Notes under the pieces: generated by a model
Database searches by the model: none
What the model was told of the DNA's origin: nothing
Seen by the model: the letters and a program-made list of their open reading frames with translations, nothing else
Shown: piece after piece, positions 31,870-36,809 of the stretch
How positions within the stretch are numbered: position 1 is the first letter of the stretch
Layout of the letters: each line of letters opens with the position of its first letter
Position numbers and translations under genes: made by a program
From: Shimia isoporae
GTDB lineage: Bacteria > Pseudomonadota > Alphaproteobacteria > Rhodobacterales > Rhodobacteraceae
Direction: 5' to 3'
NCBI RefSeq assembly: GCF_004346865.1
Contig: NZ_SMGR01000001.1
Location: 2,232,001-2,296,000, forward strand
Length of the DNA stretch: 64,000 bases

Positions 31870-32949
31870 ATGAAGATTTTGGCCGTCGACGACGACGAGA
31901 ACATCTGCGCACTGCTCACCGAAGCAGTGACAGCCAAAACCAACCACGAGCTGGTTACGGTGCCGTCAGGCCCAGAAGCCATTCGCGCGATCGCGCGACA
32001 GTCAACACCGTTTGACTGCTTCCTGCTCGATATTCAGATGCCGGTCATGGACGGCATCACGCTGGCGGAAAAAATCCGCAAAACAAAAGGTTACGCTCGC
32101 ACACCAATCATCATGCTCACAGCGATGTCGCAGAAGCGCTACATCGACGGAGCATTTGCGGCCGGCGCGACGGACTACATCACAAAGCCGTTTGATTTCC
32201 TCGAATTGTTCAGCCGTATCAGCGTCGCGGACAAGCTTGTCGGAGAACAACAGCGGGTGAGTGCCAGCGCCTCCGAAATGACCGCGCTCAAGCGGGATCT
32301 CATCCAGAATACATCCCACAGCCTGAACGAACCGGTTGAAGTCATCGGCGTCACGCAGGTCGTTGGCTATGTCGCTTTTGAAAACTACATCATGCAGCTG
32401 TCACGGTCCAAGTTGCTGCGCAGCTCCGTTTTTGCCGTGAAGATTGCCGGAGTTGAAAAAATCTTCAACAAGTCCGACCCGATCGCGTTTCGCCAAATGC
32501 TGACGGAGATCTCCAGCGAGATCGTCTCCGTCTTGGCAGACAACGGCGCGATGGCCGCCTATCGAGGAAACGGCGTATTCCTGTGCCTGTTGCCCCGCAA
32601 TAATGGGTTCTCTCACCAGAAGTACGAACTCGACCTGAACACACGGCTCGAGTACTGCCCAGCCCTGCGCGAAATCGAGACACCCACCAAAGTGTGCGTT
32701 GGCGAAGCCTTTAGCCTTCGCTCTTTGACGCGCGCTGGGGCGCTCTTCAGCCTACAAAAAGCGTCTGCAAGCGCAGAAACCCGTGCAAAGAGCCAAAAGG
32801 AAGTGCTGGCACTCTTGCGCAAATCGGTACGCATGGCGCCGCGCACTGGCTTTCAAACGGAAATGGAGCGAAGAGCGTACGAGGTTTTGCTGCAGGACGC
32901 ACTTCGGGAAGATAAATCGAGTGAAGGTCCTGCAACGGCCTACGGATAA
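31870..32949 (+). CDS. Response regulator with degenerate GGDEF-like output domain
   Basis: A 359-residue protein. Residues 1-120 form an intact receiver: acidic pocket DDD (7-9), phospho-acceptor Asp54 (FLLDIQMPVMDG), Thr84 (MLTAMS) and Lys106 (TKPF). The C-terminal part (about 175-300) has the length and pattern of a GGDEF domain, with AYRGNGVFLCLLPR where RYGGDEFxxLLP would stand, so cyclase activity is very unlikely and a binding role is possible. This likeness is by eye. A frame from 31624 exists, but AAGGGG before the ATG at 31870 and the receiver start there fix the start. It is convergent with the luxI-type gene across a shared terminator. Confidence 0.8.
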   Translation: MKILAVDDDENICALLTEAVTAKTNHELVTVPSGPEAIRAIARQSTPFDCFLLDIQMPVMDGITLAEKIRKTKGYARTPIIMLTAMSQKRYIDGAFAAGATDYITKPFDFLELFSRISVADKLVGEQQRVSASASEMTALKRDLIQNTSHSLNEPVEVIGVTQVVGYVAFENYIMQLSRSKLLRSSVFAVKIAGVEKIFNKSDPIAFRQMLTEISSEIVSVLADNGAMAAYRGNGVFLCLLPRNNGFSHQKYELDLNTRLEYCPALREIETPTKVCVGEAFSLRSLTRAGALFSLQKASASAETRAKSQKEVLALLRKSVRMAPRTGFQTEMERRAYEVLLQDALREDKSSEGPATAYG

Positions 32950-32953
32950 AACC

Positions 32954-32981
32954 AAAAACCGGCCCCAAGGCCGGTTTTTTG
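32954..32981. terminator. Bidirectional terminator between response regulator and luxI
   Basis: AAAAACCGGCC and GGCCGGTTTTTT form a strong stem with a CCAA loop. The T-run on each strand allows ending of both convergent genes, whose stops lie at 32949 and 33000. Confidence 0.85.
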
Positions 32982-32999
32982 TTTCGAGCTCATGCGATT

Positions 33000-33587
33000 T
33001 TAGTGGCGGAAAGAATTGAGATCCATGCTGGCGACCTGAACGCGAGCACCGTCAATGGTCATGACTGGACCAGCCGGCACAGCGACGAGTCCCAGTCGCC
33101 CGATCCAGCGGGACCAAACTGCCGGTACCAGTCCCAGTACCTGCTTCGCCTCAAGCGCTCGCGCCGTTTCGATCAACTGCATCATCAGTTGCGCCTGAAC
33201 TCTGGTCCGCTGTTCCGCAGGTACGAGGTGGGAGACAAATACGCGGCTTGACTCCCAAACATCAGGATCAACAGGAGCTTCGAAATCCAACAAATCTGAC
33301 GGAATTGACTCCAACATGCCTTTCTGCGCGTCGCGGATCATATACGTGTACATGCCGCACTTCGCCGTGGTGGGCGTCAGACGGATTCCGGCGAGAATCT
33401 TGTCATCCTCATGCACGGCAATCCAACGACTGGCCGGGGTGTCGTATTGGTCATATTCCATGCCCTCTGCTTCGGGCAGGTCCCAGTTATTCTGCACGAT
33501 GAAAGACTGCTTTCGCGCCTTCAGAAGGTTGACCATCAGTTCGCCATGCTGATGCATGTTCTCAAACGATAGTGTGGTCGCAAGCAT
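33000..33587 (-). CDS. luxI: LuxI-type acyl-homoserine-lactone synthase
   Basis: A 195-residue protein with all invariant residues of AHL synthases: R25, F29, W35, D46, D49, R69, E112 and R115 (KARKQSFIV, WDLP, EYDQYD, ILAGIRLTPT, WESSRVFV). It should join S-adenosylmethionine with an acyl carrier to make an acyl-homoserine lactone; acyl length cannot be told. The ATG ending at 33587 follows GGAGACGAGG. No LuxR-type gene is adjacent, which is unusual; the neighbours are phosphorelay proteins. A long non-coding region lies upstream. Confidence 0.9.
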   Translation of the reverse strand: MLATTLSFENMHQHGELMVNLLKARKQSFIVQNNWDLPEAEGMEYDQYDTPASRWIAVHEDDKILAGIRLTPTTAKCGMYTYMIRDAQKGMLESIPSDLLDFEAPVDPDVWESSRVFVSHLVPAEQRTRVQAQLMMQLIETARALEAKQVLGLVPAVWSRWIGRLGLVAVPAGPVMTIDGARVQVASMDLNSFRH

Positions 33588-33773
33588 TGCGCCTCGTCTC
33601 CGGTCTTAGTCGCATATAAGAGAAACTCACAAACACCGGACCGCGTTTGAACACTTGGGGACCCGGAACGCGTTAACAAACCAAAACACTACGCACCGCA
33701 CAACGAGCAATCCAAGCATTGCAAACCCCATCCCCTACGGTGCACACGCCTGCGTCACGTCTCGCCCTCAAAG

Positions 33774-33789
33774 GGTGACCGCGATCACA
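33774..33789. promoter_or_regulatory. CRP/FNR-family-like site
   Basis: GGTGA-CCGCGA-TCACA matches the CRP consensus TGTGA-N6-TCACA at 9 of 10 defined positions. It lies about 190 bases upstream of the luxI start. One such match may occur by chance. Confidence 0.35.
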
Positions 33790-33982
33790 AATTAAACCAA
33801 CGCGTTCTGCGTCCGAAGCGGTGCAAGTGCTCGGCCTCTCGCCTCAATTGAGACATAATTTTCCGAACTTTCCAATAAAAAAATCACTAACTTTCAGTCA
33901 TGTGCGGGTATTTGCTCATGCTTCGGTTGAAAATTGCGCATTGGACTCAAGTCATTGCCCATATTTTACTGACGCCTCGCAG

Positions 33983-34026
33983 GCCTTTGATTAAAAAAGA
34001 ATTTTTTGTAACGGAAAGGCTTTTTT
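33983..34026 (+). terminator. Orphan terminator-like hairpin
   Basis: GCCTTT (33983-33988) pairs with AAAGGC (34015-34020), an inner A6/T6 helix strengthens it, and TTTTTT follows. No plus-strand gene precedes it, so if real it would end a non-coding transcript. Confidence 0.4.
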
Positions 34027-34138
34027 GATTTTTCGCAATTATTTCCAGAGACGAACACGAATTCGCCGTTTTGTGAATGCAGCTATGTAACGTAGCGGCA
34101 GCTGACCGCGAGATGTAACGCAGGCAGAGAGATTGACG

Positions 34139-34522
34139 ATGCAGCCCTACTTTATGAACTTCCACGTCAAAGGCGAAGTTGCCGGAACGCTGCTGTTGAA
34201 CGCCACAGAACCCAAGCTTCTGGTGGATCTCTCTCCCGAATGTGCGACCCGGGAAAAGGCTCCTGGCTTCAAATACCCGAACCGCGTCAGCTTCACGATC
34301 TGTAATCCGGATCTGATAAAGCGCTTTCAAAAAACCGTAGCTTTGGGAGATGTCATCGAAGCTCATGGTGCCTTTGTGCAGTCGGGCTATGTGCCCCACG
34401 GCAATCGCCATGTCGACACGACCTTCGAAATGCGCAGTTTCCAGCAGCGATCGGCCAAAATGCCGGAACTGTCGCACGGCGGTCAGGTGTTTCAGATGCG
34501 AACCGCTGGTCTGCCCAACTGA
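34139..34522 (+). CDS. Hypothetical small protein, possibly OB-fold-like
   Basis: A 127-residue soluble protein with no signal peptide or membrane segment. The pattern FHVKGEVAGTLLL, then GDVIEAHGAFVQSGYVPHGN and TTFEMRSFQ suggests a beta-barrel of OB type, but this is a weak visual likeness and I do not recognise the family. A TTG at 34133 opens the frame; the ATG at 34139, about 8 bases after AGAGAG, is preferred. It lies between luxI (divergent) and the histidine kinase (111 bases downstream, same strand), so it may belong to the same signalling unit. Its function is unknown. Confidence 0.65.
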   Translation: MQPYFMNFHVKGEVAGTLLLNATEPKLLVDLSPECATREKAPGFKYPNRVSFTICNPDLIKRFQKTVALGDVIEAHGAFVQSGYVPHGNRHVDTTFEMRSFQQRSAKMPELSHGGQVFQMRTAGLPN

Positions 34523-34633
34523 TTGGCAACCGGCCAAATCTTGGCCCAGTCAGTCCATTCTGCGGCCACATTTCCCCGTTAACCAATCATTAGGCAGGAT
34601 TCCCAGTCGGGATCCAAATCGTGGGAAAACGCA

Positions 34634-36070
34634 ATGTTGCAAGGCATCATAAAGACTCCGAACTGGATTCAAACGGTCGCATTTCGATGGCGCCGCCGTT
34701 TGCGCACGCTCTTCCCGTCCCAAAAGATTACCGTCGAAGAAGCCCGTCGCCTCAAGAAGCAAATGCATGATTTTGCCAGCGGCGGCCTTGCACTGTTCTG
34801 GCAACGTCAAGGCATCTACGCGGGCGCAGCCATTTTGTGTGGCTTCTACTATTCCATCCCGATTGCAGTCCTTTGCTACTTCCTCTGCCAGGTCACCGAC
34901 CTGTTCGACAGCTTCATTTCGCTGCGCGTTATCAACCGCAAAGACCATTCTTTCCGTCACAGTATCGCGCTGCTGAAGTGGTTGTTCTTTTCCAACACGT
35001 TGTCGACGTTTGCAGTAGCAACATTCACCTATCTTATCGCCAAACTCGAAGGCCCGACCGAGCACTTTGCATCGCTCTTCTTTTTGTTTGCCGCTGGCCT
35101 TTTTGCAGCTGTGAATAACCACCAGCTGCCTCAAGTTCTGGCTGTTCGTCTCGTCATCTACGGCATGTTGTTTATCTATATCCCGGGTGCCGACATCTGG
35201 ACGGAACACACATCGTATCAATCAACTGCGTGGCTGCACTTCGCGACTTCGCTGTTCGTTCTCTACTTCGTATTGGAATGTTCCGTCATCTTCCTGAGAC
35301 TCTATCAAAAGGGTCTGGACCAACTCGACGAGTTGCGTGCCGAGCGAGACCGCGCTCAAGAGAGCTACGAGGTGAAGTCGCAGTTTGTATCCGTGGTGAG
35401 CCATGAATTGCGTACGCCACTGACATCCATCAATGGCTCGCTCACGCTGTTGCGCGACACCGATCTGTCAAAGAACCCGGACAGCGCCGCCCGTATGCTC
35501 GACATCGCGCACAAAAACAGCCAACGCCTGTCGAAGTTGATCAACGACCTTCTCGATATCCAAAAGATGGAAGCGCATAAGATGACCTACATCTTTGCTT
35601 CAATTGATTTGGGCGAACTGATCGAGGAGGCCGCGCAATCCGTCACGCCCTATGCAGATCAGTTTGAAACCGTTATCCGCGTCAGTCGCCCCAAGCACCC
35701 GATCACCATACGGGCTGATCACGAGCGTATGATGCAGGTTCTGGACAATCTATTGTCCAATGCCGTGAAGTTCTCTTATGCGGGGTCGTACATTGAACTC
35801 ACTGCCGGCCTCTACGGCGACCGCCCAATGCTCGAAGTCCGTGACTATGGCATCGGTATCCCCGAAGACGCACATGAAAAAGTGTTCGAAAAATTTCAGC
35901 AGGTGGACAACTCCGACCGACGCGACTTTGACGGTACGGGACTTGGGCTATCAATTGTGCGCCAAATCGTAGACGACCACGACGCCGACATCGACTTTGA
36001 AAGCACGCCTGGCGAAGGCACCCGTTTCTACATCGTTTTCCCCCCCGCGCCGGATGTATCCGACGACTAA
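34634..36070 (+). CDS. Membrane sensor histidine kinase
   Basis: A 478-residue kinase. The N-terminal half (about 55-220) has five or six hydrophobic segments forming a membrane sensor of no recognised type. A short coiled coil (QLDELRAERDRAQESYEVK) leads to the HisKA domain with phospho-His at residue 257 (SHELRTPL). The ATPase has the N box (LDNLLSNAVKFS), G1 (RDYGIGIP), F box and G2 (GTGLGLSIV). It has no receiver of its own. An Hpt gene follows after 20 bases and a receiver gene is opposite, so it probably starts a phosphorelay. Many membrane passes with small loops suit a hydrophobic signal, such as an acyl lactone, but this is a guess. Confidence 0.92.
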   Translation: MLQGIIKTPNWIQTVAFRWRRRLRTLFPSQKITVEEARRLKKQMHDFASGGLALFWQRQGIYAGAAILCGFYYSIPIAVLCYFLCQVTDLFDSFISLRVINRKDHSFRHSIALLKWLFFSNTLSTFAVATFTYLIAKLEGPTEHFASLFFLFAAGLFAAVNNHQLPQVLAVRLVIYGMLFIYIPGADIWTEHTSYQSTAWLHFATSLFVLYFVLECSVIFLRLYQKGLDQLDELRAERDRAQESYEVKSQFVSVVSHELRTPLTSINGSLTLLRDTDLSKNPDSAARMLDIAHKNSQRLSKLINDLLDIQKMEAHKMTYIFASIDLGELIEEAAQSVTPYADQFETVIRVSRPKHPITIRADHERMMQVLDNLLSNAVKFSYAGSYIELTAGLYGDRPMLEVRDYGIGIPEDAHEKVFEKFQQVDNSDRRDFDGTGLGLSIVRQIVDDHDADIDFESTPGEGTRFYIVFPPAPDVSDD

Positions 36071-36090
36071 TAATCAAGAGACCGACGACA

Positions 36091-36429
36091 GTGTTTCCTC
36101 AAGAACATCAAGACAAATTTGCAAAACTTCGCGCGCATTTCCTTGCTACGCTTCCCGAGAGAGAGGCGGAAATCGAGGACATGGTGTCCACGCTGATGGA
36201 AAAAGGGCCAAGCAAGAAGGTCTATGAAAACCTCTTCATTGCCACCCATAAACTGGCAGGCATTTCCGCGACTTATGGCATGGCGGCCCTTGGCAGCCGC
36301 GCGGAAGAGGCCGAAGTGTTGGTCGACGAAGCGCGCAAACAACGTCCTGACGAGAAACGTTTTTATGAAATTCTGTCCGCGACCGATATGCTTACCGAAG
36401 AGCTGCGACGCGTGGCTGGACTTGATTAA
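36091..36429 (+). CDS. Histidine phosphotransfer (Hpt) protein
   Basis: A 112-residue all-helical protein with the Hpt motif THKLAGISATYGM, phospho-His at residue 53. It would carry phosphate between the adjacent kinase and a receiver. The start is GTG at 36091 after an AAGAG site, 20 bases downstream of the kinase stop. Its end overlaps the convergent receiver gene by 4 bases, so kinase, Hpt and receiver are packed together. Confidence 0.88.
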   Translation: MFPQEHQDKFAKLRAHFLATLPEREAEIEDMVSTLMEKGPSKKVYENLFIATHKLAGISATYGMAALGSRAEEAEVLVDEARKQRPDEKRFYEILSATDMLTEELRRVAGLD

Positions 36430-36809
36430 CCGGTCGCGTTAGCCGCCATTGCCCGCAGCTGATCCGGAAGCGCCACCGGATCAAACGGCTTCTGAATCGC
36501 CCCCACAGCCAGCGTCTTGATGTCGTCCTGATGTTCAGTCGCGACATTCTTTGACGTCATGAACACCGCCGGAGCATCAACGGCCGTTTGCGCACGAATA
36601 GCTTGAAGTGTTTCAACACCGGTCATGCCCGGCATCATCATGTCCAGCAAAATCAGATCCGGCGCAAAGTCCTCGACTTTTGCCAGCGCGTCCGCGCCGT
36701 CTGCACATTGCAAGACCTCGAGACCACCAAGCTCCGCAAGTGCCAAATAGGCTATCTCACGAATGTCCGGGTCGTCTTCCACGTGCAGAATTTTACGGAT
36801 TTCCGTCAT
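36426..36809 (-). CDS. Single-domain response regulator (receiver only)
   Basis: A 127-residue stand-alone receiver with a full active site: E11, D12 and D13, phospho-acceptor D56 (LILLDMMMPGMTG), the conserved hydroxyl in VFMTSK and Lys in IQKPFDP. There is no output domain, so it works through protein contacts or as a phosphate sink. It converges with the Hpt gene with a 4-base overlap. It may be the receiver partner of the Hpt protein, or the response regulator at 31870 may be. Confidence 0.92.
   Translation of the reverse strand: MTEIRKILHVEDDPDIREIAYLALAELGGLEVLQCADGADALAKVEDFAPDLILLDMMMPGMTGVETLQAIRAQTAVDAPAVFMTSKNVATEHQDDIKTLAVGAIQKPFDPVALPDQLRAMAANATG

Follow-up and report, generated by a model that had tools for sequence, protein, structure and literature searches.

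The 64,000-nt stretch of the 4.23-Mb Shimia isoporae genome considered here (G000:C1:2232001-2296000; hereafter the window) carries an island in which a gene for a LuxI-type synthase of N-acyl homoserine lactones (AHLs; 33000-33587, minus strand) lies close to one for a membrane histidine kinase (34634-36070, plus strand). We consider it fairly probable that this locus is an AHL quorum-sensing unit in which the receptor for the LuxI product is the membrane histidine kinase instead of LuxR. A sequence-only reading of the window had proposed a kinase-based or relay-coupled quorum circuit. Comparative genomics strongly supports the kinase-based part, through the adjacency of the two genes across divergent genera and gene orders, the exclusion of luxR, and the exchange of LuxI for a related synthase, FeeM, in two clades of the kinase, while the full relay does not belong to the conserved core.

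The kinase gene encodes a sensor part, composed of an N-terminal segment and six predicted transmembrane helices (34634-35353), and a core with HisKA (His257) and HATPase_c domains (35354-36070), the N and G boxes of which are intact and to which no receiver is fused. With the sensor part (the first 240 residues) as query, 209 relatives were found in GTDB genomes, and the best 80 were kept for locus counts. A luxI gene lies beside the kinase in 67 of these best 80 loci, at a median gap of 805 bp and a maximum of 1.8 kb. The two genes occur in four relative arrangements (48, 11, 6 and 2 of the 67 luxI-linked loci), and no gene family in the flanks outside the island is common to more than 16 loci. 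The genes which accompany the pair in the window are less constant. The output domain of the response regulator was recognized in 45 of the 67 loci, the gene for a protein of 127 residues in 35, a histidine phosphotransfer (Hpt) protein in 27 and a receiver open reading frame (ORF) in 41, and ten loci consist of luxI and the kinase alone. Since the relay parts vary while luxI and the kinase persist, we regard these two genes as the core and the relay parts as accessories. The complete kinase-Hpt-receiver relay described in the sequence-only reading is thus present in the window in all its parts, but as a conserved unit it is ruled out, each accessory being absent from many loci. The neighbourhood as such, in the order response regulator, luxI, 127-residue protein, kinase, Hpt and receiver, does extend beyond close relatives, and the full set of genes recurs in 26 of the 67 loci (Shimia, Rhodobacter, Tabrizicola and others).

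A wider profile search covered 397 genomes, nearly every one from a genus of its own, and returned 52 sensor loci. Of these, 32 stand beside luxI, seven beside FeeM and ten without either within 3.5 kb, with a further three at contig edges. A LuxI-fold N-acyl synthase therefore adjoins 39 of the 49 scorable sensor kinases, whereas chance, with such genes at a density of one or two in every 4 Mb, would by a rough estimate account for well under 1%. The sensor domain matches no Pfam family and no PDB sequence. Outside the family it was found in none of about 285 other Alphaproteobacteria, and otherwise only a weak hybrid-kinase paralogue appeared, in the window genome and one relative. This hybrid histidine kinase of the window genome (L185, G000:C2:360997-361512; E 2.5e-5) may be remotely related to the sensor fold.

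The absence of a luxR gene beside luxI, already remarked upon from the sequence, was borne out: none is adjacent in the window, and with the LuxR queries used none was detected in the 67 luxI-linked sensor-kinase loci. Exclusion was then counted across the family, with one genome for each of 150 genera and the LuxI subfamily defined by at least 50% identity. All 40 luxR-paired LuxI have luxR within 1.5 kb and stand without the sensor kinase, and all 15 kinase-paired LuxI stand without luxR. The luxR-paired LuxI form one clade (support 99/89). They are joined by the kinase-paired LuxI of the window type (100/99); other kinase-paired LuxI, for example that of Roseovarius nubinhibens, fall elsewhere. 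When rooted by luxR-paired outgroups the kinase-paired LuxI are basal, but the approximately unbiased (AU) test does not reject one kinase-paired clade (p 0.15), and receptor exchange may have run in either direction. At one further locus (L263:2177-5045), a sensor kinase without a nearby synthase adjoins a luxR gene whose product has an autoinducer-binding domain.

The synthase itself is complete. It matches the Autoind_synth family profile (E=1.7e-12) and, as the sequence-only reading had held, carries every invariant residue, with R25, F29, W35, D46, D49, R69, E112 and R115 in the alignment. All 68 island-type LuxI keep these residues, apart from nine in which Asp takes the place of E112. 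The window genome has one genuine luxI, a second match being a 24-bit partial. It stands close to Shimia sp. SK013 and S. haliotis, and SK013 carries the same island, with 91% identity in LuxI and 88% in the kinase sensor. The single Autoind_synth gene of SK013 is the ortholog of the island luxI, in keeping with the genome paper, which lists a single AHL gene, Shim_31370 (PMC4818494), and a chemical survey reports one AHL from this strain, a C18:2-HSL isomer (PMC6356624, Table 1). With one synthase gene and one AHL in SK013, it is probable that the island synthase is active and forms a very hydrophobic, long-chain AHL, C18:2-HSL, an assignment made by orthology with SK013 and by elimination.

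FeeM is a LuxI-fold relative which produces long-chain N-acyl amides (Van Wagoner and Clardy 2006, cited in PMC11580390). Loktanella salsilacus and Sulfitobacter sp. OXR-159 carry the sensor kinase beside FeeM-type N-acyl amino-acid synthases (PF21926) on plasmids, and the same arrangement is present at chromosomal loci (L058, L059, L060, L061, L178 and L180). Every FeeM locus examined also contains a methyltransferase. At type A loci this is a membrane protein resembling PEMT/ICMT, for which the NCBI annotation of L. salsilacus gives isoprenylcysteine carboxylmethyltransferase; at type B loci it is a soluble S-adenosylmethionine (SAM) enzyme, once within one ORF with FeeM. In that instance (L250:3353-4942) the SAM-dependent methyltransferase and FeeM, each with its own Pfam match, are encoded together upstream of the sensor kinase. 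From the methyltransferases we predict that the FeeM loci yield methylated N-acyl amino acids. Compounds of this kind, N-acyl amino acid methyl esters (NAMEs), have been described in Roseovarius and Loktanella; they are analogues of AHLs that lack AHL-type activity, and neither a biosynthetic locus nor a receptor for them is described in the two reports (PMC11580390, PMC4582587).

In the kinase tree, the FeeM_A- and FeeM_B-linked kinases each form one clade (SH-aLRT 100) and are separately placed among the luxI-linked kinases, so that a FeeM partner was, most simply, gained twice. These exchanges are accompanied by changes in a conserved sensor motif at residues 144-164, of the type HF..LFFLFAA.LFAA.NNHQ. 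Kinases linked to luxI keep H144, F157 and H163 in 39 of 39 cases; in those linked to FeeM_A, position 144 is L, M or R and position 157 is Y, and in those linked to FeeM_B, position 161 is Y and position 163 is S. In an AlphaFold2 model of the kinase (mean pLDDT 85) with six transmembrane helices, the motif lies at the beginning of helix four and extends into it. We infer that the motif is a candidate ligand-reading region.

Taken together, these associations may be cast as a mechanism, in which ligand binding, the direction of signalling, the order of the relay and the output are what we infer. LuxI would produce a very hydrophobic long-chain AHL, most likely C18:2-HSL, which would partition into the membrane, where the six-helix sensor would read it at a site near residues 144-164. 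The kinase would then alter the phosphorylation of linked receivers. The response regulator at 31870, which lacks a DNA-binding domain, may be reached directly or, in the lineage of the window, via the receiver at 36426 and the Hpt protein at 36091. A broader proposal, to which we would give roughly even chances, is that kinases with this six-helix sensor make up a family of membrane receptors whose signals are long-chain N-acyl amides.

Several observations weigh against the kinase as AHL receptor. Firstly, no synthase lies within 3.5 kb of some 20% of the scorable sensor kinases. Secondly, with only two independent swaps, the changes in the motif could reflect clade history. Thirdly, PDB sequence and Foldseek searches did not connect the kinase, by sequence or by fold, with any known AHL-sensing kinase, Foldseek with the whole kinase returning only kinase cores. 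Lastly, LuxR solos accompany the luxI-kinase pair in 49 of the 50 genomes that have it. The window genome has two such genes (C1:1496903 and C1:222050), about 0.8 and 2.0 Mb from luxI.

This last point invites the explanation that an unlinked LuxR solo, encoded at either of these positions, senses the AHL while the neighbouring kinase senses something else, and LuxR regulators at a distance do exist in roseobacters (PMC3824088). We nevertheless regard this as unlikely. The best solo (L003) was considered as a specific partner for luxI and rejected, as it occurs in 123 of the 150 genera irrespective of luxI, many of them without any luxI match, and is hence not tied to the island. The draft genome of Sulfitobacter sp. 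HI0040 has the luxI-kinase pair and no detected LuxR. Moreover, sensing by a solo leaves both the fixed adjacency of luxI and kinase and the FeeM swaps unexplained.

A different objection concerns direction, to which adjacency alone is silent. The kinase may answer some other membrane or lipid cue and control the synthase or its product, such that signal production is its output and not its input. Such an arrangement would suit the occurrence of the same kinase beside FeeM synthases, for whose products an antibiotic role has been suggested (PMC11580390). However, a controlling kinase fits poorly with a linked response regulator devoid of a DNA-binding domain, as well as with ten loci which have neither response regulator nor receiver nearby. 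The variation of sensor residues with synthase type is also better suited to the sensing of a product than of an unrelated cue, and we give this second explanation little credence. Neutral linkage, by which luxI and kinase travel as an island without acting together, agrees with the coming and going of relay genes around the pair and its presence on plasmids, but is very improbable given that the pair persists while its orientation and flanks change, that it excludes luxR, and that the kinase has gained FeeM partners twice. One such plasmid, pDSM110277_b of Sulfitobacter pontiacus, carries a minimal luxI-kinase pair (L202, 58794-61089) flanked by genes for resistance-nodulation-division (RND) efflux and a cytochrome P450.

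All parts of the island named in the sequence-only reading were found where it had placed them. The response regulator (31870-32949, plus strand) has a receiver (E=5e-25) with Asp54 and Lys106 and an output of about 230 residues. Its description as a degenerate GGDEF-like output is plausible, in that the two best PDB profile matches are GGDEF domains, though weak ones (E=0.03 and 0.08), and that the Pfam GGDEF family matches two of 40 members (best E 0.009); the output is probably a dead GGDEF remnant. Given that its signature reads GNGVF in place of GGDEF, an active diguanylate cyclase is not plausible. The 127-residue protein (34139-34522, plus strand) has no sequence match to single-stranded DNA-binding (SSB) protein families and is predicted to adopt an SSB/PriB-like oligonucleotide/oligosaccharide-binding (OB) fold (AlphaFold2 pLDDT 73; Foldseek to SSB E 6e-5, probability 1.00). 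It was found only in such islands, and a predicted fold of nucleic-acid-binding type is unexpected in a quorum-sensing setting. The Hpt protein (36091-36429, plus strand; E=6e-6) has His53, and the single-domain receiver (36426-36809, minus strand) has Asp56. Genes for the same type of response regulator and for Hpt recur as adjacent pairs a few kb from the sensor kinase, also where luxI is missing (L058:2907-4339, L204:600-1957, L237:2884-4237).

The island is not a single operon. The response regulator gene and luxI converge on a terminator-like hairpin (32954-32979; a pattern match with an 11-bp stem), and luxI diverges from the group on the plus strand, formed by the genes for the 127-residue protein, kinase and Hpt, to the last of which the gene for the lone receiver is opposed. 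The divergent intergenic region between luxI and the OB-protein and kinase genes measures 551 bp in the window (33588-34138) and about 515-830 bp in relatives, and contains short conserved blocks. One of these (about ACCACGAATTTGCCACCTT), some 60-110 bp upstream of the OB-protein gene in the window (34020-34090) and in relatives L103-L118, is a possible regulatory site. No sigma-70-like promoter was found in this region and no lux-box could be assigned there. A CtrA box upstream of the kinase (TTAA-N7-TTAG in the window, and similar in two close Shimia) was discarded as a conserved feature, as it is not conserved further.

In Vibrio, the LuxM/LuxN (AinS/AinR) systems read an AHL by means of a membrane histidine kinase and pass the signal on by phosphotransfer (cited in PMC3824088). 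The mechanism proposed here would, by analogy, share with them the use of a membrane histidine kinase as AHL receptor. It differs in its synthase, which is of the LuxI and not the LuxM/AinS type, and in a kinase with six predicted transmembrane helices and, unlike LuxN, no fused receiver. Canonical LuxI/LuxR pairs of roseobacters (I-beta type) contain close relatives of the island LuxI, about 50-65% identical, but are set apart by their nearby luxR and lack of the sensor kinase. FeeM synthases resemble LuxI as related acyltransferases, for long-chain N-acyl amides, which adjoin the same kinase family.

The idea of an orphan luxI working with a kinase is not new. Cude and Buchan in 2013 described orphan luxI genes adjoining histidine kinases in seven of 38 roseobacter genomes (topologies H, I and J; I-delta) and proposed LuxN-like signalling (PMC3824088). 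The island resembles these topologies in having a histidine kinase beside a luxI with no adjacent luxR, and in Roseovarius nubinhibens ISM, the topology I strain, we recovered the same sensor kinase beside luxI (L166). Whereas the earlier topologies comprise different kinase types, a single sensor family is concerned here, luxR exclusion has been counted, and FeeM partners are included. Window-type LuxI also lies apart from I-delta, near luxR-paired LuxI, although the AU test leaves a single kinase-paired clade standing. What appears to be new is the single sensor family, the luxR exclusion, the partnership with FeeM plus a methyltransferase, the changes in the motif and the link to the SK013 product; the literature searched contained no account of the sensor family, the FeeM swaps or the product link. 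We found no experimental follow-up of the orphan luxI-kinase idea in the open full-text literature, a body of work which does not include most subscription papers.

Non-LuxR receptors have been named in review as an open question for the orphan luxI genes of roseobacters (PMC3824088). The present work singles out one sensor domain, with a motif as candidate reader of the ligand and C18:2-HSL as candidate ligand, and culturable strains (Shimia SK013, S. haliotis and S. marina). If the kinase is indeed the receptor, a natural receptor exchange would be at hand: within one synthase family, LuxR would serve as the reader in one branch and a membrane kinase in its close relatives. Under the broader proposal of a receptor family for N-acyl amide signals, NAMEs would gain both a biosynthetic locus and a receptor, and quorum sensing by AHLs without LuxR would be of long standing and common in the Rhodobacterales.

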